Shown one piece after another: positions 1 through 54,164 of a stretch of DNA of 64,000 nt (its first letter is position 1; each line of letters opens with the position of its first letter). The notes beneath the pieces are model-generated. The model saw nothing but the letters and a program-made list of their open reading frames with translations. It did not search any database and was not told the origin of the DNA. Source of the DNA: a virus; IMG/VR virus record IMGVR_UViG_3300010401_000001, positions 1 to 64,000 of that record, one strand, 5' to 3'. Both the position numbers and the translations under genes were made by a program.

Positions 1-668
1 AGCGATCCCGCGAGTGGCCGACCGCACGCGATGGCACCGCCGTGCGGCTCTGTCGGATCCGGTCGGCACCGCCCGCGGTGACCGGCCGGCAGCGGGCACA
101 GGTCGGTGCGCGGCATCGGCCGCTGGTTGTACTCGCTGGCCCACCTCACCGGCTTCGCTTCCAGCACCTCGTGGCACTCGATCAACGCGCACAGGCCACT
201 CGCTCCTCCAGAGATGTTGATGCTGGCGACGGTTACCCGGTCAACGATCACCGTCGGCGTGTACAGCCGACGTACGATGCCGTGACTGACCTCGATCCGA
301 TCGAATACGTCAACATCACCGACGCAATCGATCCGGACGTAGCGAGGTCCCGATGACTTTCCGTAGGCATACTTCACGTCCGGCCAGGGAAACGGCTCGC
401 ATAACTCATCAATGGTACGCATAGCGAGCGCGACGTCACCGAGCACGACCATGCCGCGGTCCCCGAGGTTCGCTCGCAGCGCTCGCTTCGCGCGATCAAT
501 CTCGAGGTCGAGCCGCGCACCGGTCGCGGCGTCGGTCATACCGTCCTCTCGCCAGTCTCCGAGCACCGCCTCGCACGCGTGCAGGTCGTCGAGCAGGGCC
601 TGCGTGTCGGGCGGGATCAGGCGCCCAGCCTGCAGCTGGGCCGCGTTACAGTAGCGTGCGCCGGTCAC
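1..668 (-). CDS. Hypothetical protein, C-terminus outside the window
   Basis: Leftward frame open from a GTG at 668 to the window edge, giving 222 residues without a stop. The GTG overlaps the TGA of the upstream 35-residue gene (GTGA overlap), the typical packing of this genome. The N-terminal half is helical and charged; the middle is beta-rich. I recognise no domain. It is the last visible member of a leftward run of small genes starting near 1150. Real gene fairly sure, function unknown. Confidence 0.6.
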   Translation of the reverse strand, partial: MTGARYCNAAQLQAGRLIPPDTQALLDDLHACEAVLGDWREDGMTDAATGARLDLEIDRAKRALRANLGDRGMVVLGDVALAMRTIDELCEPFPWPDVKYAYGKSSGPRYVRIDCVGDVDVFDRIEVSHGIVRRLYTPTVIVDRVTVASINISGGASGLCALIECHEVLEAKPVRWASEYNQRPMPRTDLCPLPAGHRGRCRPDPTEPHGGAIACGRPLAGS

Positions 669-773: not shown

Positions 774-938
774 TCAGCCCTCCTCGTCATCACGCCCGCT
801 CCGCGACCACGGGACGACCGCGCTCAGCGTGCTGAGCATCGCTACCACGATGAGCAGCGTAACGATGGGATGCTCGAGAGCGAACTCCTGCATCCGCCCA
901 CCGTAGCCGAGCGCGGCGCGGCGCGCCAGAGCGATCAT
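774..938 (-). CDS. Small single-pass membrane protein, 54 aa
   Basis: ATG overlaps the TGA of the upstream coiled-coil gene (ATGA). An internal ATG at residue 16 would give 39 residues. One hydrophobic segment (HPIVTLLIVVAMLSTLSAVV, about residues 24-43) is followed by an acidic C-terminus (RDDEEG). Such small membrane proteins are frequent in phage accessory operons; a lysis or superinfection role is possible but not shown. Confidence 0.5.
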   Translation of the reverse strand: MIALARRAALGYGGRMQEFALEHPIVTLLIVVAMLSTLSAVVPWSRSGRDDEEG

Positions 939-1150
939 CCAGCAGCGGGTGCGGACGGCGGGCTCAGCGTAGCGATCGCCGCATCGACCTTGGCCGCCTC
1001 GGCGCTAGCCGCGTCGATGGTAGCCTGCAGCGTAGTGGCCGCCGCGGCGTCGCCGGCCTGCAGCGCTGCGACCTGGTTCTGCGCCGCCTTGAGCTGGTCG
1101 CGCAGCGTCTGGATGGAGGGCGGCAGTCTTCCGGGGGCGTCGCCGGTCAG
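935..1150 (-). CDS. Ala/Gln-rich coiled-coil protein with probable CTG start, 71 aa
   Basis: The frame reads as a heptad-rich coiled coil (IQTLRDQLKAAQNQVAAL and following). It has no ATG, GTG or TTG start. A CTG at 1150 overlaps a TGA in another frame as CTGA, matching the ATGA and GTGA overlaps used elsewhere here. The upstream ORF is disrupted (see the pseudogene at 1200), so the true start could have been lost. Coding character is good; the start is uncertain. Function unknown. Confidence 0.45.
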   Translation of the reverse strand: MTGDAPGRLPPSIQTLRDQLKAAQNQVAALQAGDAAAATTLQATIDAASAEAAKVDAAIATLSPPSAPAAG

Positions 1151-1199
1151 CCGGCGGCGATTTCGCTCCCGCGTATGTCCGATGTAAAATCACCGCGTT

Positions 1200-1387
1200 A
1201 TCAGTTTTTCCCCGTATTTCGCTCCCGCCCACCACGGCGATGCCGTCCTCGATAATGCCTGCTCTAACCTTCACGCCGTAGATGGTCACGCCGTGCTCGT
1301 CGCTCCGCACGCGGCGCGCGTCTGCCCCGAGGCACTGGCTGCAGCTGGACGGAGAGCTGTTCCGGCCGTGCGGGGCTTTGCACGTTT
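1200..1387 (-). pseudogene. Disrupted Cys-rich (zinc-finger-like) ORF
   Basis: The leftward frame contains two Cys in a CSQC pair, another Cys upstream, and the coding-like segment DEHGVTIYGVKVRAGIIEDG before 1228. No standard start lies upstream in frame (a GTG at 1310 would remove the Cys part). After 1228 the frame loses coding character in a roughly 56-bp AT-richer stretch bounded by a 12-bp direct repeat (1161-1172 and 1217-1228). Collapsing that repeat would restore a clean stop overlapping the next gene. Probably a damaged gene; boundaries approximate. Confidence 0.35.
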
Positions 1388-1435
1388 TTCGGTTTCTCGA
1401 CGGGAAAACCGTGCAGCGCTTAGCAAAAACGTGCA
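1379..1435. promoter_or_regulatory. Three copies of a TGCACG(T/G)TTTT motif
   Basis: TGCACGTTTTT at 1379-1389 on the plus strand; TGCACGGTTTT at 1405-1415 and TGCACGTTTTT at 1425-1435 on the minus strand. They lie in the intergenic region between leftward and rightward transcription units. The first and third copies form a perfect 11-bp inverted repeat. Most likely sites for a regulator; the protein is unknown. Confidence 0.4.
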
Positions 1436-1446
1436 GCCGAGCGCCG

Positions 1447-1463
1447 GGTGGTGTCCTAATTTG
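1447..1463 (+). promoter_or_regulatory. 17-bp motif upstream of the rightward operon
   Basis: GGTGGTGTCCTAATTTG, identical to the motif read leftward at 3640-3624 upstream of the HTH gene ending at 3248. Both copies point toward the downstream gene (45 and 26 bp before the start codon). TAATTT could be a -10 element, but no good -35 is visible. It is probably a shared promoter element or operator of that HTH protein. Confidence 0.45.
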
Positions 1464-1507
1464 GCTCGCGAGCTCTTTTCTCGTCGAGCTCCCCTACCTT
1501 GGAGAGC

Positions 1508-1582
1508 ATGGATGAAGCAGCAAACGCGACGCTCAGAACCCCATCCCTGATCACCATCGCCGCGCGGGCGGTGGTTCCATGA
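1508..1582 (+). CDS. Leader-size ORF, 24 aa
   Basis: ATG preceded by TTGGAGAG at good spacing and followed by 24 codons ending in TGA that overlaps the ATG of the next gene (ATGA). First gene of the rightward operon. Function unknown; a translational-coupling leader is possible. Confidence 0.45.
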   Translation: MDEAANATLRTPSLITIAARAVVP

Positions 1583-1887
1583 GCCGCACCCGGGCGATCA
1601 CGAAGGCCATGCCGAAGCGGCTACCGTCGCGGGCGGACTTCGACACCCACGTGGGCGGGGCACGCCTCGCCATCGGCCGCGCCGAGGCCATCACCTACGC
1701 CTTGCACAGCTACTTCGACGAGCGGCACGTCACCACCGCCGATGACGCCGTAGCCGAGCGTCGCGTGTCCCACCTGATCGACATGGCGGCGGTGGCCACC
1801 GTCGAGGCGTTCGAGGAGCTCGACCGCGCGGCCGATGCCCTCGGGCGCGGGGATGGCGTCCCGGACGCGGACTGGGGCGACGCGTGA
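1579..1887 (+). CDS. Hypothetical helical protein, 102 aa
   Basis: Compact acidic, mostly helical protein (central segment RVSHLIDMAAVATVEAFEEL) with no recognisable motif. It starts in an ATGA overlap with the leader ORF and ends in a GTGA overlap with the next gene, so it belongs to a short rightward operon downstream of the 17-bp motif. Function unknown. Confidence 0.6.
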   Translation: MSRTRAITKAMPKRLPSRADFDTHVGGARLAIGRAEAITYALHSYFDERHVTTADDAVAERRVSHLIDMAAVATVEAFEELDRAADALGRGDGVPDADWGDA

Positions 1888-2102
1888 GCAAGCGTCGCAA
1901 GGCCAAGGCCCGGCCATCGAAGCCGGCCGAGGGAGAGCTCATCGTCAGGGCGCGGACGTTCGCCCTGCTCTGGCGCGTGGCGCACGCGGCCCGCGCCGCG
2001 CTGTGGGCGCCCGAGATGGAGGACTGCGGCGCGGCGGCGTACGTCGTCCTCGACGACGCGATCGACGACCTCGACGCTCACGTCCGGTCGGGAGGTGCGT
2101 GA
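1884..2102 (+). CDS. Hypothetical small protein, 72 aa
   Basis: GTG start overlapping the previous TGA. Basic N-terminus (SKRRKAKARPSK) then an Ala-rich helical body with an acidic end. The stop overlaps the next ATG as TGATG. No domain recognised. Confidence 0.6.
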   Translation: MSKRRKAKARPSKPAEGELIVRARTFALLWRVAHAARAALWAPEMEDCGAAAYVVLDDAIDDLDAHVRSGGA

Positions 2103-2479
2103 TGTCGGCCAGGCACGGGCGGAATTTCAGTGGGCTGTTCTCCGGATCGCGCCCGCGCTACCCTGGCGCGGAGATCATGGACGAAGCTGGTAACGCAGCG
2201 CTGCAAGAAGCGATCAGGCACATGCACGGCTGCGCATCGACCTGGGTGGAGTCGGTTCCGGTGCACGAGACGTTCAACGGCGAAGTCGTCTGGGATGGCG
2301 AGGTCCAGGTCTACGACCTGGTCGGCCACCCGACCGCCAAGCGCGCCTACGCCTGGTCCCACGCCACCGAGGGCACCAAGCGCCGGTTCTACGCCGTGCT
2401 CGGGATCTCGCCCATCGTCGATGCGCTTACCGCGGTCCGTGCGTCGATCGTCGCTGCCGTCGACCGGGGTGTGCTGTGA
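2102..2479 (+). CDS. Hypothetical phage protein, 125 aa
   Basis: ATG preceded by GGAGG at 5-nt spacing, which fixes the start. Mixed alpha/beta protein with a central beta-rich part (ETFNGEVVWDGEVQVYDL) and a helical C-terminus. The central pattern resembles small phage proteins found near replication genes, but I cannot name a family. Last gene of the 1.5-2.5 kb operon. Confidence 0.65.
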   Translation: MSARHGRNFSGLFSGSRPRYPGAEIMDEAGNAALQEAIRHMHGCASTWVESVPVHETFNGEVVWDGEVQVYDLVGHPTAKRAYAWSHATEGTKRRFYAVLGISPIVDALTAVRASIVAAVDRGVL

Positions 2480-2567
2480 TCCAGCGCGCTTCGTCCGATG
2501 AGATCTGAACAGGTGAGCCACGTCTGGCGCGCGTTGCGCGGCACGCGAGCAGATGATACAAGGTAGG

Positions 2568-2665
2568 CGGAAGGCGAGGGACTCGAACCCAACCGGTGGT
2601 ATCAGCACCGGAACCTCATGGGGATGTAAAAACCTCACGCGTGACCTACACGCGGATCGCCTTCC
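2568..2665 (-). tRNA. tRNA-like gene with 9-bp acceptor and 3-bp T stem (allo-tRNA / SelC-like)
   Basis: Read leftward from 2665. A 9-bp acceptor GGAAGGCGA pairs with TCGCCTTCC (2569-2577), with discriminator G at 2568. A 2-nt linker leads to a 6-bp D stem CGCGTG/CACGCG with a 5-nt loop TAGGT. The variable arm has a 6-bp stem CCGGTG/CACCGG. A 3-bp T stem GGG/CCC carries a perfect T loop TTCGAGT. The 9+3 acceptor branch, long D stem and long variable arm recall tRNA-Sec and the reported 8/4 and 9/3 allo-tRNAs. The anticodon arm is irregular (TGAGG, then TTTTTACAT, then CCCCA, one A-C mismatch), so the anticodon cannot be assigned; UUA is one reading. CCA is not encoded. It may be a suppressor tRNA, a non-coding RNA, or a relic. 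Confidence 0.55.
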
Positions 2666-2787
2666 CGGACCGACGCCCCCACCTCGCTTACCCCGCAAGA
2701 GTTTCCGGGGTGGGGGCGCCCACCGATATTTAGAAGCGCCTCGGGCACGGGCGCATCGCTACTACTTTTCCCATAGTCGTCCTTTCG

Positions 2788-3144
2788 TCACTCAGCCTCG
2801 CTGGTTGCCCGATGCAACCCACGGATCAAGTCGACCAATTGCTTTGAGAATCGCGCGTGGGCGTTTTCCAAGATTTCCTTGAAGCCGACCATCGCGCGCG
2901 TGTCCCACTCCCACCAGTCGATAAACGCCTGCGCTTGAGCGGCGTCTTGATTCTCTCCCGGCTTGCTATAGATCTGGTTGTAACTGCGATCTGAATTGAA
3001 CGGCGGGTCCATGTAGCAGAGGTCGACTGACTCGTCGCGAAGGTACTTCCTCATCACTTCCAGGTTGTCGCCATAATAGAGTGCGTTCGACGGCTTCGGC
3101 TTCGAGTCCTTACCCATGGAAAAGATCGTAGTAAGTGCGCTCAT
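2788..3144 (-). pseudogene. N-terminal fragment of a beta-class adenine DNA methyltransferase
   Basis: 118 residues from an ATG preceded by GAGGAAAG. The fragment holds the block NALYYGDNLEVMRKYL and catalytic motif IV (DPPF) in CYMDPPFNSDRSYNQIY, typical of type III Mod-like enzymes. Intact relatives run to several hundred residues, with the SAM-binding FxGxG motif after DPPF; here the frame stops before it. GC content is lower than in its neighbours, suggesting later acquisition. Almost certainly inactive as a methyltransferase. Confidence 0.65.
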
Positions 3145-3247
3145 CGCGGATCCACTTTCCTCCCTTGCGCTGCGGACGTGCGTGTACATGTGTTCAGATC
3201 TTATAGAAGCGCACCTTGCGCAAGTCCCCGGCCCCGCGTGCGACGGC

Positions 3248-3598
3248 TCACCGCCCCAGGCGACAGCGCCCAGTGCCGCCGCACGTGGGACACCGCTCGC
3301 CGGGCCACCTGCCCGAGAGCACGGCCTCGAGCTTGACCTCCGCCACGAACGCGACCAGCACCGCGACGCGCATCGTGGGCGGGCGCTTGAGCGTCTTCCG
3401 CAGCCCGTCGTAGGTCAGCCCCATCCGACGCGCCAGCTCGCCACGGCCGAGGCGCATGCGGAGGTAGCGGAGCGCGATCCGGACGTGCTCGCGCTGGTCC
3501 TGCGTGAGCACCTCGGGTCGGTGCCGGCGCTCGGCCTCGGGCCGGCGCCACGTGAACTTCTGCTCGAGGATCGACATGGCGACCATCGCGGCATGCAC
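3248..3598 (-). CDS. HTH transcriptional regulator with C-terminal zinc knuckle
   Basis: 116 residues. Residues about 35-85 form a Cro/XRE-like helix-turn-helix (GRGELARRMGLTYDGLRKTL), and the C-terminus carries CPTCGGTGRC, a probable zinc-binding knuckle. The gene lies 26 bp downstream of the 17-bp motif at 3624-3640, which also precedes the 1508 operon, so this protein is a good candidate to bind that motif and control itself and the operon. Alternative start at Met5 or Met8. Confidence 0.65.
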   Translation of the reverse strand: MHAAMVAMSILEQKFTWRRPEAERRHRPEVLTQDQREHVRIALRYLRMRLGRGELARRMGLTYDGLRKTLKRPPTMRVAVLVAFVAEVKLEAVLSGRWPGERCPTCGGTGRCRLGR

Positions 3599-3623
3599 GG
3601 GCGGGATCTGTCCAGGACGGGCT

Positions 3624-3640
3624 CAAATTAGGACACCACC
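3624..3640 (-). promoter_or_regulatory. Second copy of the 17-bp motif
   Basis: Exact reverse complement of 1447-1463, oriented toward the HTH gene starting at 3598. Similarity extends on the 5' side (GCGC followed by two variable bases). Shared promoter element or operator. Confidence 0.45.
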
Positions 3641-3719
3641 GAGCGCCGAGCACCGGGATCACTCCACCACGGTTTCCTCGTCCACGAAGTCGTCCGGCGG
3701 GTGGCCGCCTAGTGCCAGA

Positions 3720-3833
3720 TCAACGCGACGGTTTCTGCCCACCGCGCCGGCCCGACTCCGTAACCACCGTGATCCCATTGCTCGACACCGTGGCCAGAAA
3801 CGGCGTGTTACGGGTCGCCACAAAGTTGGACAT
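3720..3833 (-). pseudogene. Short ORF, probable gene remnant, 37 aa
   Basis: Frame MSNFVATRNTPFLATVSS and following ends at 3720. Coding character extends about 17 codons upstream of this ATG (DELYALAKDSYGK) to an in-frame TGA, so the N-terminus appears lost. Together with the overlapping toxin fragment it marks a decayed region. Function unknown. Confidence 0.35.
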
Positions 3834-3981
3834 CTTCCCGTAGCTGTCCTTTGCCAAGGCATACAGCTCGTCGAATTTTAGGTGTCACCACTCGGCCTCC
3901 CGCATCGGTTATCCCCCGCGCGACATGCGGCCCCGCATCCTCGTCGATGACGAAAACGATGCTGGCTTCAGGCAGCCGCAC
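3808..3981 (-). pseudogene. Remnant of a PIN-like (DUF5615-type) toxin
   Basis: GTG start overlapping the end of the antitoxin gene, as in intact toxin-antitoxin operons. The start FVIDEDAGPHVARGITDAGG matches the first acidic block of PIN-like toxins (F-x-I-D-E-D), but after about 30 residues the frame loses similarity and stops at 57 residues, roughly half the usual length. Likely inactivated by frameshift or deletion. Confidence 0.45.
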
Positions 3982-4675
3982 GATGCCATTCGACTGCCTG
4001 ATTAACGATGGACTGCTTCACTACGAACTCCCTGGCCACGCGCGCAGGTGTCTCGCCGGATTCGATGAGGTCGGCGACGATATCGACCGCGACCCCAGTG
4101 CCGGCCATTGTCAGGCGGCCGAACGAGAGATCGGGATCTAGCACCACCGATCGCGGCTCCCCTGCGTCTTTGAGGTACGGGAACAGTCGCTCGGCGAGAC
4201 CGTCAGCATCGCACTCGATACGCTGCAGGCTGTCATCGATCAACTCCTTCATCGCCCGTTGCCCGCCGCCGGCGGTCATATCCACGAGAGCGCCTAACTG
4301 CTTGACGTAGATGTGATACCCGTCGGTGAGGAACTGGTTGGTGAGGAGCGGGCGTGGCATGTCCAACTCCGCGCGCATGTTGTCTATGGCGCGGCGGACA
4401 GCCGTGAGCGGCACCTCGCGAACTCGGCGCAGCGTGTGGAGGACGTACGCCTCGATCAAGTCGTTGAACGTCAGTCGAACCGGATTGCCGTCTGGTAGGT
4501 CGATCAGCGGCCGGAACCGGCCGCTCCGGTTTTGCGCGACCGGATAGTCCATCCCGACGGTCCAGGTCCGAAGCGTCGACGCCGGCATTCGCAGATACGC
4601 CGCCGCCCGCGCCACTGTGTATAGCGGGACTTCGCGCGGATCAGAGTCGCCAAAGATGCTACGAACGCTGCTCAT
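3968..4675 (-). CDS. HTH and DUF433 antitoxin-like regulator
   Basis: 235 residues. The N-terminus (about 15-60) is a MerR-like HTH (YTVARAAAYLRMPASTLRTW). The C-terminus (about 165-230) matches DUF433: a Val-rich PRSVVLDPDL strand, then GVAVDIVADLIESGETPARVA, a second HTH-like unit found in antitoxins paired with PIN-like toxins. The gene is followed by a degraded toxin, so it may now act only as a DNA-binding regulator. A perfect CTGACA-N6-TGTCAG palindrome 63 bp upstream may be its operator. The domain order is seen; neutralisation of a toxin is family knowledge. Confidence 0.7.
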   Translation of the reverse strand: MSSVRSIFGDSDPREVPLYTVARAAAYLRMPASTLRTWTVGMDYPVAQNRSGRFRPLIDLPDGNPVRLTFNDLIEAYVLHTLRRVREVPLTAVRRAIDNMRAELDMPRPLLTNQFLTDGYHIYVKQLGALVDMTAGGGQRAMKELIDDSLQRIECDADGLAERLFPYLKDAGEPRSVVLDPDLSFGRLTMAGTGVAVDIVADLIESGETPARVAREFVVKQSIVNQAVEWHRAAA

Positions 4676-4737
4676 GGTGGATGCCTCCGAATGGTACCAG
4701 GCGCGCGAGCCTGTGAGCGACTCGGCCCTGGCGATTG

Positions 4738-4755
4738 CTGACAGCCTAGTGTCAG
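4738..4755. promoter_or_regulatory. Palindrome CTGACA-N6-TGTCAG upstream of the antitoxin-like gene
   Basis: Perfect 6-bp inverted repeat with 6-bp spacer between the antitoxin-like gene (start 4675) and the end of the leftward operon (4808). A TTGACA hexamer on the minus strand at 4781-4776 could be the -35; no clear -10 was found. Candidate autoregulatory operator. Confidence 0.4.
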
Positions 4756-4807
4756 GTTCGTCAGATCTGAGGAAGTGTCAACGTGCAAAGCTGCCGTGCG
4801 GGCACAT

Positions 4808-5002
4808 CTACGTCGGCACCGATGCCCGCGCGTCGGCGGCTGCGAATGCCTCTTCCCATGTCGCTCCTGACCCGATCGTGCTGGACACGCCGACCGTGCC
4901 GACCACGAACCTCCGCTCGCGCGCAGGGCGACGCAGTCGCATGACCCAAGCTCGCGCACCCCATCTGCGCCGCGCCTCTTCGAGCGCCTGCGCTCTGGTC
5001 AT
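4808..5002 (-). CDS. Hypothetical small basic protein, 64 aa
   Basis: ATG overlaps the TGA of the SNF2 helicase gene. It is Arg-rich with a beta-strand stretch (RRFVVGTVGVSSTIGSGATWEEAFAAA), reminiscent of small phage proteins with a single alpha-beta unit. Last gene of the long leftward replication operon. Confidence 0.6.
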   Translation of the reverse strand: MTRAQALEEARRRWGARAWVMRLRRPARERRFVVGTVGVSSTIGSGATWEEAFAAADARASVPT

Positions 5003-6735
5003 GGCGCGAACCCCGCGGGCTGCAGCCCAGCACGCGCCAGCACGTCAGCGGCGAGCCGCCGCATGTGCTCCTCGGCTGCTCCGGTCAGCACCGGCTCGCC
5101 GGCTGCGTCCGGATCGACGATGCCCGTCGCCTGGGCGTCTTTGATTCCCAGCACGTCGGCGATCACCGGATCAGAGCCCTCGTCCGCCACCAGGTAGTAC
5201 GCCGTGACCGGCTCGACCTGGCCGTCGCGATAGGCGCGGCCGATGTCCTGCTCGTGAATCTTCGGAGACCAGTCTAGTTCTCCGATCACGACCGTGTGAC
5301 ACACGTCCTGTAGACCGTCGAGCCCGGCGCCGGCCCGCAGCGACATGACCAGCACGCGCACCTCGCCGGCCACGAACCGGCGCACGCTCTCGGTCTTCTC
5401 GACCTCCGACTCCTCGCCCGTGTACCGCGCCCAGGTTACGCCGTGCTGGTCGAACGCGGAGCACCACAGAGCGTAGACATCGAGGTGCCAGCCGAACAGG
5501 AGCACGCGTTCGCCGGCGTCGACCAGCAACCGGACGTGATCGACCACTGCCGCCGCCTTCCCGATCCCGGTGGCTTGCCGCAAGCGCCAGTCGATCTCCC
5601 CCGACCAGCGCATCAAATCAAAGTTCGTCCCGGACCGCGCGAGCACGCGGCTCGCCAGCTCGGCGACGCTGCGGACAGCCTCGTTGATCCGGCCATGGTC
5701 GACCTCGACATGGAGCCGCACGATCGTCAGGCCGGGCAACTCACGACCGACGTCGCGGCGCGTGCGCCGGATCATCACGCCCGTCGATCGGAGGTACGTG
5801 CCGAGCGCAACCGGATCACGCACGCGATGCTTCTGGCCTTCATAGGTGCACCACTCGCGAAGGAACTCGCTTTCCGCGCCGAGCACGTCCGGTGCGAGCA
5901 CGTTCAGGATCGGCCAGATCTCGTCACCGTAGTTGTACACCGGGGTGCCGGACAACCCGATCCGCAGGTCGGACGCATCGGCGATCGCCTTCGCCGCGAT
6001 GTACTTGTTGGTCCCGCTGCGCCGGAGCTCCTGAACTTCGTCGAAAACGATCGACTTGACGAGCCCGGCGAGCTGCTCCACCCAGCCGTCGAGCTTGTGG
6101 TAGTTTATGATCAGCACGTCGGGTACGTATCCGGCGACCTTGCGGCGCCGGCCGTCCGAGTCGGTCTCGAATCTGGGCTTGTCGAACCGGTACGGCGCGC
6201 GCGTGCGGATCCGGTGCGTCCGCAGCGTGGGCGCGAACCTGGCGAGCTGCGCCTGCCACTGGCGAGGAAGGTATGTCATCGTCACGACCACCGCTGGAAG
6301 CGCGCCAGCAGCGGTCAGCGCGCAGATCGCCGTGACGGTCTTGCCGAGGCCGAGCTGATCCGCAACTAGCAGCCCGCGCGTGCGGAGCGCCAGGTCGGCT
6401 GCGGTGCGCTGGTATTCGCGCGCCGGCTCCGCGAGCTCGAACTGTCGCGGCACGTAGCCCTCGTGCTCGACCTCGCCGACCGCCGCGTTCCGGCGTGCCT
6501 CGTGGTCTACCAGGTTGGCGAAGTCAGCCGCGCACGCCGGGTCAACCTCGAGCGGATACCGCTGCCGGAACCACTCGAGCTCATGCGCCGCGGATGCTGT
6601 CGCCTTGACCTCGAACACGCCAGCGGCGACGCGCTGCGATCCAGCGAACACCCGTTGCAGCTTGATCGCCACGTGCGGCGCGCACTCGATGTGGAACCGG
6701 CGATCGCGGATGGTGATGAGCCCGGCCCGCATCAA
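4999..6735 (-). CDS. SNF2-family DNA helicase/translocase
   Basis: 578 residues with both RecA-like lobes of an SF2 SNF2-type ATPase. Walker A GLGKT is at about 129-133 (QLGLGKTVTAICALT). Motif II is DEVQ at about 232-235 instead of the common DEAH. SGTP (motif III) is at 262-265, and the second lobe ends in a D-Q-x-x-G-R-A-Y-R-x-G-Q motif (DIGRAYRDGQ). It overlaps the small PD-(D/E)XK gene upstream and a small gene downstream. In phages such proteins remodel DNA-protein complexes during replication or work with a nuclease partner. Assignment secure, exact role unknown. Confidence 0.88.
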   Translation of the reverse strand: MMRAGLITIRDRRFHIECAPHVAIKLQRVFAGSQRVAAGVFEVKATASAAHELEWFRQRYPLEVDPACAADFANLVDHEARRNAAVGEVEHEGYVPRQFELAEPAREYQRTAADLALRTRGLLVADQLGLGKTVTAICALTAAGALPAVVVTMTYLPRQWQAQLARFAPTLRTHRIRTRAPYRFDKPRFETDSDGRRRKVAGYVPDVLIINYHKLDGWVEQLAGLVKSIVFDEVQELRRSGTNKYIAAKAIADASDLRIGLSGTPVYNYGDEIWPILNVLAPDVLGAESEFLREWCTYEGQKHRVRDPVALGTYLRSTGVMIRRTRRDVGRELPGLTIVRLHVEVDHGRINEAVRSVAELASRVLARSGTNFDLMRWSGEIDWRLRQATGIGKAAAVVDHVRLLVDAGERVLLFGWHLDVYALWCSAFDQHGVTWARYTGEESEVEKTESVRRFVAGEVRVLVMSLRAGAGLDGLQDVCHTVVIGELDWSPKIHEQDIGRAYRDGQVEPVTAYYLVADEGSDPVIADVLGIKDAQATGIVDPDAAGEPVLTGAAEEHMRRLAADVLARAGLQPAGFAP

Positions 6736-7106
6736 AACGACCTCAGGGCGATCACGCCGAACGGCTTGCCGCCGAGCTCGTCGGATCCGGCTCGGCGAAG
6801 TTCATTGGCCAGCCGCTGTGACGTGGTAACGACCACCACAGCGGCGACGTCTGGCGATGCCGCGTACCGCTGGGCCTGGCGCTCGACCGACGGCGCCGAC
6901 GCCGCAAGCTTGAGCTCGATGACGACGCGCCCTGTCCCGGGGACCGCAACGAGCAAATCGTACCGGCCATTGCCTGCCTGGACCTCGCGGTCGACGCCGA
7001 GGTCAGCGCGGACCAGGACCGTGGCGATCATATCCTGCAGCTGCCGCTCGTCGGTCGGGCGGAATACGTACTGACCGAGCAACTCGGCGATGCTCGCGAT
7101 CGTCAC
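6732..7106 (-). CDS. Small PD-(D/E)XK nuclease-like protein, 124 aa
   Basis: The start is a GTG overlapping the previous TGA (GTGA); a longer frame upstream is a shadow. The core GRYDLLVAVPGTGRVVIELKL fits the PD-(D/E)XK signature (D in YDLL, E-x-K in IELK), followed by a helix and VAAVVVVTTS strand. This is the size of a minimal restriction-endonuclease-like fold. It directly precedes and overlaps the SNF2 gene, suggesting a nuclease-translocase pair. Nuclease activity is inferred from the motif. Confidence 0.65.
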   Translation of the reverse strand: MTIASIAELLGQYVFRPTDERQLQDMIATVLVRADLGVDREVQAGNGRYDLLVAVPGTGRVVIELKLAASAPSVERQAQRYAASPDVAAVVVVTTSQRLANELRRAGSDELGGKPFGVIALRSF

Positions 7107-7399
7107 GGCTCGAACCTCGCCAACGAGCTCGGCCGGCCGGCGTAGCCACGCGCCCGGGTCGCGCTGCGCAGGTCGTCCTCTGTAACGCCGAGCCCACTGG
7201 CCAGCTCGCGCAGCGGCGTTCCGCACTGTAGGAGCGCGACGGCGACGTCGGCGCCGTAGCTATCGAGCCTGCGCGCCGGCACGGCCTGGACGTGGCACAG
7301 GAACACGCGCTCGTCGGTGACGACGAACAACTCGCTGGTGCCCAGCGCGCGGCCGACCTCGAAAACGCCTTCGTTGCGGAGATCGCTTGTCCTAATCAT
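7103..7399 (-). CDS. Hypothetical protein with C-terminal HTH-like segment, 98 aa
   Basis: N-terminal beta-rich half (ELFVVTDERVFLCHVQAV) and C-terminal helices LRELASGLGVTEDDLRSA that look like a winged-helix or XRE-type HTH. It overlaps both neighbours. Regulatory or DNA-binding role possible. Confidence 0.55.
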   Translation of the reverse strand: MIRTSDLRNEGVFEVGRALGTSELFVVTDERVFLCHVQAVPARRLDSYGADVAVALLQCGTPLRELASGLGVTEDDLRSATRARGYAGRPSSLARFEP

Positions 7400-7907
7400 C
7401 GGAGTAGCCGTCCCATCCGATGCCGCGCAGCTGCTCCTCGGTCCACTTGGGGCTCGGAAGCGCTTTGATCTCCGCGTCGGTCATCGTGCAGACGAAGCGC
7501 CGCCCGCCCTCGGGCTTGACCTCGTGGATCTTGCACGCGTTGCCGTGCTCGACGTCGAGGAACACGCACGGCGTGTCGATGTCGTAGGTCTCGCGCGCGG
7601 TGAGGTACCGCCCGCCGTCCTGCTGGCCGCGCCGAGGGAGCAGCCGGTAACCGTTGCCGTCCTGGATGTCGTCAACAACCAGCGATGACGCGAACAGCTC
7701 ATGCACCGTGACGCCGAGGTGAACGGCAATCCGCCGCTCGTCGCCCGGGAAGAGGTCACACGGGCGTGTCCAGCAGCAGACCCCGCTCTGCTGGCATGTC
7801 GCGGCGCCGCTGACCTTGGCTCGCTGTGGGGATGCGTTATCGGCGATCTGCTGCAGCCGCGCGTGCGTTCGCATTCGGATCATGTGCACAGAGATGAAGT
7901 CCATCAT
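7392..7907 (-). CDS. YkgJ-family cysteine cluster protein
   Basis: 171 residues. The Cys pattern is CQQSGVCCWTRPCDLFPGDE, then TPCVFLDVEHGNACKIHEVKP and RRFVC, the arrangement of the YkgJ/zinc- or iron-chelating family (C-x5-CC, C near FL, C-x-IH, K-P, C). Such proteins bind Fe-S or zinc; roles in phages are unknown. It sits between the RuvC-like resolvase and an HTH-like gene and overlaps both. Confidence 0.7.
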   Translation of the reverse strand: MMDFISVHMIRMRTHARLQQIADNASPQRAKVSGAATCQQSGVCCWTRPCDLFPGDERRIAVHLGVTVHELFASSLVVDDIQDGNGYRLLPRRGQQDGGRYLTARETYDIDTPCVFLDVEHGNACKIHEVKPEGGRRFVCTMTDAEIKALPSPKWTEEQLRGIGWDGYSDD

Positions 7908-14160: not shown

Positions 14161-15140
14161 GGTGTGGACCCCAGCGGGAGATCGGCCTGCGATGCGACAC
14201 CCAGGCAGTGCGGCGAGAACCAGATACGTTCCTTCGCGGACGACCACGCAGAGCTGTTGCCCTTCCACGCGACGCACGTCCACGTCGCCGGCATGTGTTG
14301 GCCGTGCTCGGTGTCCCAGCCGCAGAGCGCGATCCGCAACGCCGGGTTGTCGCCGTTCTCGAGTGCCCAGGCACGGACCGCGGCCGACAGGTCCGGGTCG
14401 TCCTCGCGGTAGAGCCGCTTCTCGCGCTCGTCGTGGGCGTAGGGCGGATCGAGCAGAACGCCGCACGGGGTCATCCCGTGCGCGGTGTCGATGCCGAGCG
14501 TCGACCGGCCAAGCACGCGGGTCCAGTCGCCGCAGCAGATCCGGACGCCGCGCAAGCGATCGGCGAGTACTCCGAACAGCTCGGCGAGCGGAAGCGCGCC
14601 GGTGCGGTGCACGCCCTTGCCGCGGTGGGTGAGCGGTTTTTTTCGGCTGGGCGCGTTGATGCCACGCCCCGGAGTTCCAACCTCTGGCATCGAGCGATGC
14701 AACGGTCGGCCGATCCGCTCGTCGGCCGAGCACCACCCGTTGCCGATCCATGTGGAGATGCCCCAGACCCACCACCCGGCGATCTTCGGGTCGGAGTACT
14801 CGGGGTCGGCGATGAGCTTCTCGAGCAATGCCGGCACCTTAGCCACGAGCCAGCGGTGGCGAGCATGAAGGTCGGCCTCGTTGACCGGCCAATCCGTCCA
14901 CCGCGCCACCTCGTCAGGTGTCGAGCGTGTCGCGCGCCAAAAGTTCGCGATCAGGCCGTCCTTGTCGTTGGCGGTCTCCACCTTGCCGGCGCCGCCGGGC
15001 CGAGCGAGCAACACAGCGAGGCTACCGGCGAACGGCTCGACGTAGTTTGGGACGTCGCCGAACGCGCGCCAGATCAGCGCAGCCGCGCGGCTCTTTCCGC
15101 CGAACCATGGGAACGGCGCTCGAAGCTGTCCTGGTGTCAC
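14157..15140 (-). CDS. D12-class adenine DNA methyltransferase (Dam-type)
   Basis: 327 residues from a GTG overlapping the stop of the Mom-like gene. SAM-binding motif I PFPWFGGKSRAA is at residues 9-20, YVEPFAGSLAVLL follows, and the catalytic motif DPPYAHDER lies around residue 240. This order (motif I then DPPY) is that of the alpha-class D12 family. It would methylate adenine in phage DNA; adjacency to the Mom-like gene is notable because in Mu the mom gene is controlled by Dam methylation. Confidence 0.85.
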   Translation of the reverse strand: MTPGQLRAPFPWFGGKSRAAALIWRAFGDVPNYVEPFAGSLAVLLARPGGAGKVETANDKDGLIANFWRATRSTPDEVARWTDWPVNEADLHARHRWLVAKVPALLEKLIADPEYSDPKIAGWWVWGISTWIGNGWCSADERIGRPLHRSMPEVGTPGRGINAPSRKKPLTHRGKGVHRTGALPLAELFGVLADRLRGVRICCGDWTRVLGRSTLGIDTAHGMTPCGVLLDPPYAHDEREKRLYREDDPDLSAAVRAWALENGDNPALRIALCGWDTEHGQHMPATWTCVAWKGNSSAWSSAKERIWFSPHCLGVASQADLPLGSTP

Positions 15141-15940
15141 GCGACCCCCAAAAACTTCGGGTACGGCTGCGCGGCAGCGGTGAGGACCTCTCGCCGCCGG
15201 CGGAGATCGAGGCACCACAGGTAGCGGTGGTTGCCGTGGTGGCGCATCGGTCGAGTCAGCCGAGCGCGCCACAGGCGAAGCCACGCGAGCGCGTCCTCGC
15301 CGGGACGCAGCGGGTCGGCGCCCCACCGCTCGAGCTCGGCCGCCGCGTACCGCCTGCCCTGCTCGCCGCGCACCAGCTTGCCGGCGGTCCGGTTGCTGTA
15401 GCAGGTGCCGTCTGGCAGTAGCCGAAGCGTCGCCGGGTTGGTGCGGCCGACATACCGGCCGTTGGTTGCCTGGTAGACGATTCCGAGGTGCCCGCGGTGG
15501 ACCGCGGCGCCGGCCAGGGTGGTTCGCGGCTGCGGGTCGGCGCAGGACTCGACGGCGACCACGCCGCGGGCGCGCAGGAACTCGAAGCATCGAGCCACGA
15601 AAAAGCTCTCGCCGTTGCCGGGAACGTCGTCGACCAGGACAAGCCGGCCGAGCGTTACGGCCTGGCCGATCGCCAGCGTGGGCCACACGGCGCGATGCGC
15701 GTTCATCGACGCCGGCGGACCGAACAGCGCGACGCCAACAAGGTCGGCGCGGAGGTACAGTCCGAAGCGGTGAGCGGTCGAGCTGGCCCGGCCGGCGTAG
15801 TGGTGTCGCTCGACGAACGCGCGGGCCTCGGCGGCGCCAGCGATGGGCGCGACGTCGTAAGCTGACGTCCGGACCGTCTCGCCGGCGGGACGCCGCGACT
15901 CGCGGCGCTCGGTCCAGCGCTGGACGAAGTCGACGATCAC
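15137..15940 (-). CDS. Mom-like adenine hypermodification protein (GNAT fold)
   Basis: 267 residues. The core FVERHHYAGRASSTAHRFGL, a GVALFGPPAS strand, TLGRLVLVDDVPGNGESFFV, VESCADPQPRT and HRGHLGIVYQATNGRYVG fit the Mom family (methylcarbamoylation of adenine in phage Mu, GNAT-like fold). Modified DNA resists many restriction enzymes. It sits beside a D12 methyltransferase and in the same operon as a second Dam-like enzyme. Family call by recalled motifs, not a search; activity would need testing. Confidence 0.7.
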   Translation of the reverse strand: MIVDFVQRWTERRESRRPAGETVRTSAYDVAPIAGAAEARAFVERHHYAGRASSTAHRFGLYLRADLVGVALFGPPASMNAHRAVWPTLAIGQAVTLGRLVLVDDVPGNGESFFVARCFEFLRARGVVAVESCADPQPRTTLAGAAVHRGHLGIVYQATNGRYVGRTNPATLRLLPDGTCYSNRTAGKLVRGEQGRRYAAAELERWGADPLRPGEDALAWLRLWRARLTRPMRHHGNHRYLWCLDLRRRREVLTAAAQPYPKFLGVA

Positions 15941-37338: not shown

Positions 37339-37564
37339 AGGTCGACCTCGACGACCTCGAGCACAAGGCTCGATTGCAGAACCACGGCGTGCTGTGCGCT
37401 GAGCCGCCTTGTTGTTGCTGCGCGCCAGTAACTATTGCGCTGATCGCTCGCATCCGCGAGCTCGAGGCCGCTGCGCGCGAGGTCGCAGATGCTCCTCACC
37501 GACATGCTCAGGCCGGCCGCATCGGAATCATGCGGTCGGTGCTCGACAAAGGCGTGGTGTTGCC

Positions 37565-37568
<4 letters not shown>
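37335..37568 (+). CDS. Hypothetical protein with CCCC cluster, 77 aa
   Basis: GTG overlap start. VLCAEPPCCCCAPVTIALIA then coiled-coil ARIRELEAAAREVAD. The stop overlaps the kinase GTG, so translation of the kinase is probably coupled to it. Confidence 0.55.
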
Positions 37569-40972
<3,404 letters not shown>

Positions 40973-53508: not shown

Positions 53509-54164
53509 CAGAGAACCTTGACCTTCTGCGAGGTGTAGCTGGCGACCGCGGCGTTGAAGCTGTTGAGCGCCGCGGTGATCGCGCTGCCCGCCGCCGTCCC
53601 TCCGGTCGGGATGCCGCTGACCGCTGACGCGATGGCGGTTACAAGTGTGGTCAGCTGCGATAGGAAAGCGTTGCCGAGCAACACGGGTTCCGTGGCCGGC
53701 GAGCCGCCTAGGTTGAGCACGTCTTGGTCGTCGACCTCGGCGAACGTGCCAGCGGGGTCGTCGCCATCGAAGAACAGCCCGGTGATCGCGATCCCGTCAG
53801 CCTCGTGGTGGTGCCGGTCATCGTCCGGGTCAACCACGTCGTCAACCGACTTCAGCTTCGCGATGCTCGACGACGAGAACACGACGAGGCAGCGGTCGCC
53901 GACGCGCACCGGGTACTTGAACCGCTCGATGCCGCTGCCGATCCGCATTACCGGGACGTCGGTCAGCGGCGCGATCACCGTGGTCTGGCGCTCGCCGTCG
54001 CCGTCGACGTGCGCATCCATGACCAGGAGCTACACCGTAGCGCGCCGGGTCGCCTTGTCGTAGGACTCGATCCGGCCGGGCAGAGCGGCGCGGAGCCCAT
54101 CGAGCCGGTCATCGAGCGCGGCGTCGATTACCTCGTTGAGTAGCGGCGTCAGCGAGTCGCTCAT
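53508..54164 (-). CDS. Baseplate spike (gp45/gp138-N type) with in-frame amber codon
   Basis: From ATG 54164 (ATGA overlap with the hub gene) the frame encodes 44 residues ending SYDKATRRATV, then TAG (54030-54032), then in the same frame LLVMDAHVDGDGERQTTVIAPLT and the rest to 53508. Relatives of this spike family have a continuous segment LPGxVxSYD...ADVQP...V.D...DGER spanning exactly this point. A single C-to-T change (CAG to TAG) would cause it. Either suppressed by a tRNA or a defect; ATG 54020 could give a short 170-residue form. Confidence 0.75.

Follow-up and report, generated by a model that had tools for sequence, protein, structure and literature searches.

A soil phage carries a gene for a 98-nucleotide (nt) transfer RNA-like molecule with a 9/3 acceptor branch, and we place this RNA with high confidence in a transposon-linked family of five-stem allo-tRNAs. 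The whole stretch of DNA analysed, here called the window, comprises bases 1–64,000 of the 89,855-base IMG/VR virus record IMGVR_UViG_3300010401_000001, and the gene lies at 2568–2665 on its minus strand. The RNA has the 9/3 structure and sits in an accessory insertion of the phage genome; in Planctomycetota the family is linked to a ribbon-helix-helix (RHH) gene and an IS1-like transposase gene. Our favoured explanation, which we hold with slightly more belief than doubt, is that it is a phage-borne member, on the UUA-anticodon branch, of a conserved transposon-associated 9/3 family with a junction helix, and that it is a passenger of the insertion.

Structure and detection of the phage RNA

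The gene had been proposed in a sequence-only reading of the window, whose coordinates proved exact; the RNA runs from 2665 to 2568. The 9-base pair (bp) acceptor, the 3-bp T stem, the 6-bp D stem with a 5-nt loop, the long variable arm and the TTCGAGT T loop which it described can all be read from the sequence, and the irregularity which it saw in the anticodon arm consists of A.C and U.U mismatches. The parts are as follows.

2568–2665, minus: 9/3 allo-tRNA-like gene, 98 nt, UUA-anticodon branch (sequence, Rfam tRNA-Sec model, held-out model R3)
2657–2665, minus: acceptor stem 5' strand, GGAAGGCGA, 9 bp with 2577–2569
2568–2577, minus: acceptor stem 3' strand, TCGCCTTCC, and discriminator G73
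2655–2656, minus: U10 C11 (TC), with C12 part of the junction helix, pairing with linker G51 G52; partly broken in the phage copy
2638–2654, minus: D arm, 6-bp stem CGCGTG/CACGCG, 5-nt loop TAGGT (contains GG)
2619–2637, minus: anticodon arm TGAGGT TTTTACA TCCCCA, with the two mismatches
2627–2629, minus: anticodon TTA (UUA), U33 before it, C37 A38 after it, placed by alignment with the bacterial relatives L088 and L100 (CUUUACA loops)
2612–2618, minus: linker UGAGGUU, which bears the 3' side of the junction helix; an (N)GAGG(G) linker is conserved in relatives
2593–2611, minus: variable arm CCGGTG/CACCGG, 6 bp, 7-nt loop CTGATAC
2578–2590, minus: T arm GGG-TTCGAGT-CCC, 3 bp

All 9 acceptor pairs and all 3 T-stem pairs are Watson-Crick, and the dinucleotide TT lies between the variable arm and the T arm. 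CCA is not encoded; CCT follows G73. The anticodon stem-loop, GAGGU-UUUUACA-UCCCC, yields U33, the UUA anticodon and C37. In the junction helix the pair C11-G52 is possible, C12-G51 competes with the D-stem pair C12-G28, and U10.U53 is broken. RNAfold gave −40.7 kcal/mol for the RNA (z = −3.0), with 1 of 200 shuffles equally good. Immediately upstream of the gene there is a strong G+C-rich inverted repeat with 13-nt arms (window 2674–2718), and the copy in Neorhodopirellula pilleata likewise has a hairpin immediately upstream.

ARAGORN, to which the sequence-only reading had looked for a check, misses the gene and finds no tRNA at 2568–2665. Rfam returns no match at its gathering threshold; the best match is the model of selenocysteine tRNA (tRNA-Sec, RF01852) at 36.5 bits (E = 1.3e-5 in 601 nt), so that the suggested tRNA-Sec check did give a match, but one below the gathering score of 47. 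Two covariance models were specific to this work: R1, built from the phage RNA alone, was used to collect bacterial members, and R3 was built from 33 planctomycete sequences with the phage sequence excluded. R3 scores the phage RNA at 87.5 bits (E = 3.4e-14), as against only 34–37 bits for real planctomycete tRNA-Sec (L075, L076) and for tRNA-Ser (L014); ordinary tRNA-Ser and tRNA-Sec can be told apart from these RNAs with the model. The members were first gathered with R1, hence the family is defined by likeness to the phage copy; the members' own covariation does not depend on that likeness. We regard the held-out R3 score as the strongest evidence that the phage RNA is a true member. The R3 score and the folding energy bear out the earlier proposal of a genuine 9/3 allo-tRNA-like gene.

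Bacterial relatives, covariation and the fifth helix

A genome-wide pattern made from the phage acceptor and T arm had a single match, in the planctomycete N. pilleata. The R1 search found many more members in Planctomycetota, among them members in 17 of 297 genomes of the order to which N. pilleata belongs and in 7 of 170 genomes of a second order. A few low-scoring matches of the first R1 search were real tRNA-Sec or array tRNAs. The locus L014 (NZ_CP107854.1 147216–150240), on a Nonomuraea plasmid, has 24 tRNA genes in 3 kb, and the gene table of the plasmid lists no features there.

The stems are maintained by compensatory change. Over the 33 sequences, 93.2% of cells are paired compared with 77.2% in shuffles, and 25 of 31 pairs have changes on both sides. 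The covariation score is 0.41 (0.410) against 0.155; it was reached in none of 500 shuffles and is at most 0.10 when the partners are slid. Double changes are seen among relatives at 7 of the 9 acceptor pairs, covariation extends to all five family D-stem pairs and all six family variable-arm pairs, and 99% of the T-arm cells are paired in the family. Covariation in related phages had been put forward as a check of the gene: the stems are indeed kept by covariation, in the bacterial relatives, but none of the other related phage records examined carries the gene.

The family has a fifth, junction helix, in which a CCC that follows the acceptor pairs with a GGG in the linker beyond the anticodon arm. 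Among 44 parsed members it is CCC/GGG in 29, UCC/GGA in four, and CCU/AGG and CGC/GCG in one each. A five-stem junction had been suggested for allo-tRNA(UAU) (PMC7609411), and this helix is in agreement with it. Many members also have an unpaired 31.39 position, so the irregular anticodon arm of the phage RNA is partly a family trait.

The anticodon loop is strongly conserved as Y-U-U-A-U-A with U33. The phage anticodon is UUA, whereas 38 of the 44 parsed members have UAU (L085 is one more UAU member, parsed out of register). Two bacterial members, L088 (838–932) and L100 (1501–1593), have UUA, and the phage RNA aligns to this branch by its UUUACAU loop and stem. The anticodon arm of L088 is perfect, with five pairs (AGGGA-CUUUACA-UCCCU), and L100 has the same loop. 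The perfect L088 stem means that a UUA loop with C37 is not merely damage in the phage copy, and UUA, as the sequence-only reading had it, remains the best reading of the anticodon. Single members have the anticodons UGU (L148, 866–957) and UUU (L096, 1501–1591).

Exact-pattern scans of viral contigs for the phage acceptor or loop had zero matches. A scan with a 5' consensus pattern found three further IMG/VR contigs with UAU-type members.

L149: 336–427
L150: 11686–11805; seems disrupted
L151: 3869–3961

Six matches to a second viral-contig pattern were not family members, and the DNA matches of the phage tRNA in phages and plasmids were merely the 25-nt T-arm/acceptor of ordinary tRNAs.

Transposon neighbourhood and AUA codons

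Most planctomycete loci have one layout: the tRNA, a convergent RHH gene of about 60 residues that matches NikA-like proteins, and beyond it, on the tRNA strand, a transposase that matches DDE_Tnp_IS1. The RHH gene usually stops no more than about 30 bases from the tRNA 3' end or overlaps it, and in most relatives its stop codon is at, near or within that end. The viral contig L151, an independent contig, has the full layout. A search of 294 genomes for the RHH protein gave weak matches only. The two UUA loci, L088 and L100, have in common an upstream winged-helix-like gene and an RHH gene ending with TAA inside the tRNA; no transposase was found at L088, and at L100 only a decayed fragment.

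The UAU anticodon of the majority is matched by the placement of AUA codons in the linked transposases. Residues 165–215 form a segment whose end lies near the catalytic Glu of the DDE motif. Of the 93 Ile codons in this segment in 22 distinct tRNA-linked transposases, 46 are AUA, compared with 1 of 218 elsewhere (Fisher p about 1e-27, without phylogenetic correction and for a segment picked after the data were seen). This corresponds to 41.7 AUA per thousand codons inside the segment and 0.2 outside, and neither the other A-ending codons nor third-position G+C content (GC3) has a comparable skew there. At least one AUA is present in the segment in 22 of 22 tRNA-linked transposases and in 5 of 10 without a detected tRNA (p = 0.0013), some of which may hide divergent tRNAs. 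Transposases with AUA almost confined to 165–215 are those of L072, L082–L086, L090, L091, L093, L094, L097, L099, L101, L104–L107 and others; L140, L142, L143, L144, L146 and L151 are further loci that fit this placement. We regard the codon match in the bacterial elements as the most consequential lead of this work, and it is directly testable.

Accessory insertion and phage genome

G001 and G002, close relatives of the phage (about 90–95% identical), are without the tRNA according to blastn, and its surroundings have the marks of an insertion.

1375–4792: accessory segment absent from G002, in which 1374 is joined to 4793 (blastn)
938–7839: segment absent from G001, in which about 937 is joined to 7840 through 154 bases (blastn)
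1449–3638: candidate 2.19-kb insertion with 15-bp inverted repeats, TGGTGTCCTAATTTG...CAAATTAGGACACCA; no empty site isolates the unit
2788–3189, minus: DNA methyltransferase truncated to its N-terminal part, which lies on the tRNA strand and upstream of the tRNA (phrog_67, E = 9e-12, profile positions 121–203 of 743)
2102–2479, plus: 125-residue gene, unknown, convergent with the tRNA; it differs from the RHH gene of the relatives

Near-identical 12-bp direct repeats (1437–1448 and 3639–3650) flank the candidate insertion, as expected of an insertion. Between them (window 1437–3650) are the tRNA, the truncated methyltransferase, a helix-turn-helix gene, for which no plasmid match was found, and unknown genes.

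A 123-bp direct terminal repeat (window 1–123 and 89733–89855 of the full record, G000) indicates that the genome is present in full in the record and is 89,732 bp long. By gene content the phage is temperate with a contractile tail (integrase, sheath, Dit-like protein, baseplate J proteins, portal, head protease). The whole 89.9-kb record has two ordinary tRNAs only, Ala-TGC and Met-CAT. A search for the host found no close match to the tail sheath in Planctomycetota or to the portal among phage records. The same phage encodes an 1187-residue protein with a serine-threonine kinase domain (window 37409–40972) and a Mom-like DNA modification protein (15137–15940).

Favoured explanation and its rivals

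The RNA would be transcribed and, given G73 and the long variable arm, probably charged with serine by the seryl-tRNA synthetase (SerRS) of the host. Its ancestral job may have been to read a codon that the mobile element itself uses, which would be AUA in the UAU majority and UAA/UAG in the branch with UUA. Within the phage the insertion would simply carry it along; it might suppress stops weakly and locally at most, and it would not recode the phage as a whole. Seen in its wider context, the RNA looks like one of a transposon-associated class and not like a suppressor adapted to the phage, and we favour a passenger with possible weak element-specific decoding over a non-decoding RNA, a decaying copy or a phage-wide suppressor.

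Several observations count against this explanation. The UUA branch is thin, with two other members only, and no in-frame UAA partner gene was found for it. The phage anticodon stem has two mismatches, and the loop has C37. No significant homologues of the RHH, winged helix-turn-helix or transposase proteins were found in the phage genome by tblastn, and with RHH and transposase missing, only the homology of the RNA ties the phage to that transposon. In E. coli, translation did not make use of UAU-class RNAs, and the E. coli enzymes could not charge irregular allo-tRNAs from the soil polycistrons (PMC7609411). The AUA columns of the transposases are mostly Ile/Val/Leu/Met in other copies, with two mixed, which fits isoleucine better than serine; AUA as a simple serine recoding in the transposase is not supported. 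As to the amino acid inserted, these columns would favour an Ile-like residue, and G73 with the long variable arm would favour SerRS.

A bolder version seems to us possible, if somewhat doubtful. Bacterial transposons, with phage offshoots, may encode a deviant tRNA matched to codons placed in one transposase segment before the catalytic Glu, and the tRNA would then be a translational lock or poison, either permitting an active transposase or spoiling it by serine insertion. The phage RNA would be the stop-codon (UUA) version.

It is unlikely, although well worth considering, that the RNA does not decode at all, and that it controls the element by binding, through its tRNA-like fold, to SerRS, to the RHH protein or to the element mRNA; it could, for instance, act as a structured antisense RNA against the convergent RHH gene. 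The RHH stop codons at the tRNA 3' end would suit such a role, as would the junction helix, a departure from normal tRNA, and the inactivity of UAU-class RNAs in E. coli; the conserved anticodon loop with its U33, the AUA codons positioned to match the anticodon, and a T loop, acceptor and G73 that remain those of real tRNAs would not.

Slightly less likely still is a family copy that was brought by the insertion and is decaying, no longer functional in the phage. The RHH and transposase partners are missing, the anticodon stem has its A.C mismatch, the outer junction pair is broken and the gene adjoins a truncated methyltransferase, but all other stems are perfect, and a score above those of 14 bacterial members in the family model is unexpected after long decay.

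We consider it improbable that the RNA is a working phage suppressor, charged with serine by the host and reading UAA and, by U34 wobble, UAG in phage genes during infection. The UUA anticodon with U33 and the SerRS-type features agree with such a role, and the sequence-only reading had seen a fit with in-frame stops noted elsewhere. A fit with in-frame stops across the phage is not supported: putative in-frame TAA and TAG are no commoner than in-frame TGA and mostly reflect neighbouring genes in one frame, and we reject phage-wide UAA/UAG recoding. Both TAA and TAG serve as normal terminators in this phage (TGA 100, TAG 21, TAA 10). Recoding was tested by a coding-score scan with UGA as control and by codon alignment to G001 and G002. 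The scan yielded 1 TAA, 2 TAG and 3 TGA as putative in-frame stops, most of them at known gene boundaries; several stops that had seemed in-frame were due to non-coding frames or wrong starts. One in-frame stop is convincing, a UAG at window 54030–54032 (minus strand) inside the Pfam-conserved Gp138-type N-terminal domain (PF18352) of a baseplate gene. The codon is CAG in G001, which is without the tRNA segment; over the gene the two phages differ by 43 synonymous and 18 non-synonymous codon changes, and outside this codon the gene is under purifying selection. An ATG follows shortly after the UAG, so that restart or plain mutation is possible. An ochre-type tRNA could read this UAG by wobble, but a single case cannot carry the suppressor claim. 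C37 adjoining A36 is unfavourable for reading UNN codons, and the mismatched anticodon stem and the absence of the gene from close relatives also speak against a suppressor. For this phage the result is a warning that a stop-reading anticodon is by itself no evidence of recoding.

It is hardly credible that a tRNA-Ser or tRNA-Sec of the ordinary kind, or an array of hairpins arisen by chance, was misread as 9/3: over 25 nt the 3' half matches a tRNA-Ser of the Nonomuraea plasmid exactly and the best Rfam match is tRNA-Sec, but a 7/5 reading breaks two T-stem pairs where the 9/3 reading is perfect, the Nonomuraea tRNA-Ser reaches 34 bits in the 9/3 family model that gives the phage RNA 87.5, the anticodon is not UCA, and ARAGORN sees no tRNA.

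Comparison with known systems

To our knowledge, allo-tRNAs have since 2017 been curiosities with no clear natural job. Covariation, a fixed neighbourhood and an anticodon-codon match now suggest a testable function, that of element-encoded tRNAs controlling the translation of their own element; mobile elements may carry their own decoding key. A review lists Clostridia, Proteobacteria and Acidobacteria (PMC7609411); the present family is placed in Planctomycetota, and such RNAs move into phages.

The phage RNA shares with the 9/3 allo-tRNAs (Mukai et al. 2017, reviewed in PMC7609411 and PMC7590224) the 9-bp acceptor, 3-bp T stem, long D stem, long variable arm and SerRS-type features, and by acceptor, T stem, D stem and variable arm it is one of them. 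Ochre (UAA-reading) 9/3 allo-tRNAs are already on record (PMC7609411, PMC7590224). The phage RNA differs in being phage-borne within an accessory insertion and in its partly kept junction helix, its long linker before the variable arm and its mismatched anticodon stem.

The transposon-linked allo-tRNA(UAU) of the Edaphobacter C40 type (PMC7609411) has in common with the family an overlap with a transposon-related gene, the UAU anticodon, a possible five-stem junction and irregular pairing. The family is distinguished by its wide spread in Planctomycetota, the fixed tRNA/RHH/IS1-transposase layout, the covarying junction helix and the anticodon-matched AUA codons, and the phage copy by UUA. With tRNA-Sec (RF01852) the phage RNA shares a long acceptor, a 6-bp D stem with a small loop and a long variable arm, but it has a 3-bp T stem, UUA instead of UCA and a score below gathering. 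Recoded phages (crAss-like, Lak and others) have suppressor tRNAs that are likewise phage-encoded with stop-reading anticodons; here, in contrast, the phage is without genome-wide recoding, and the tRNA fold is 9/3 rather than canonical.
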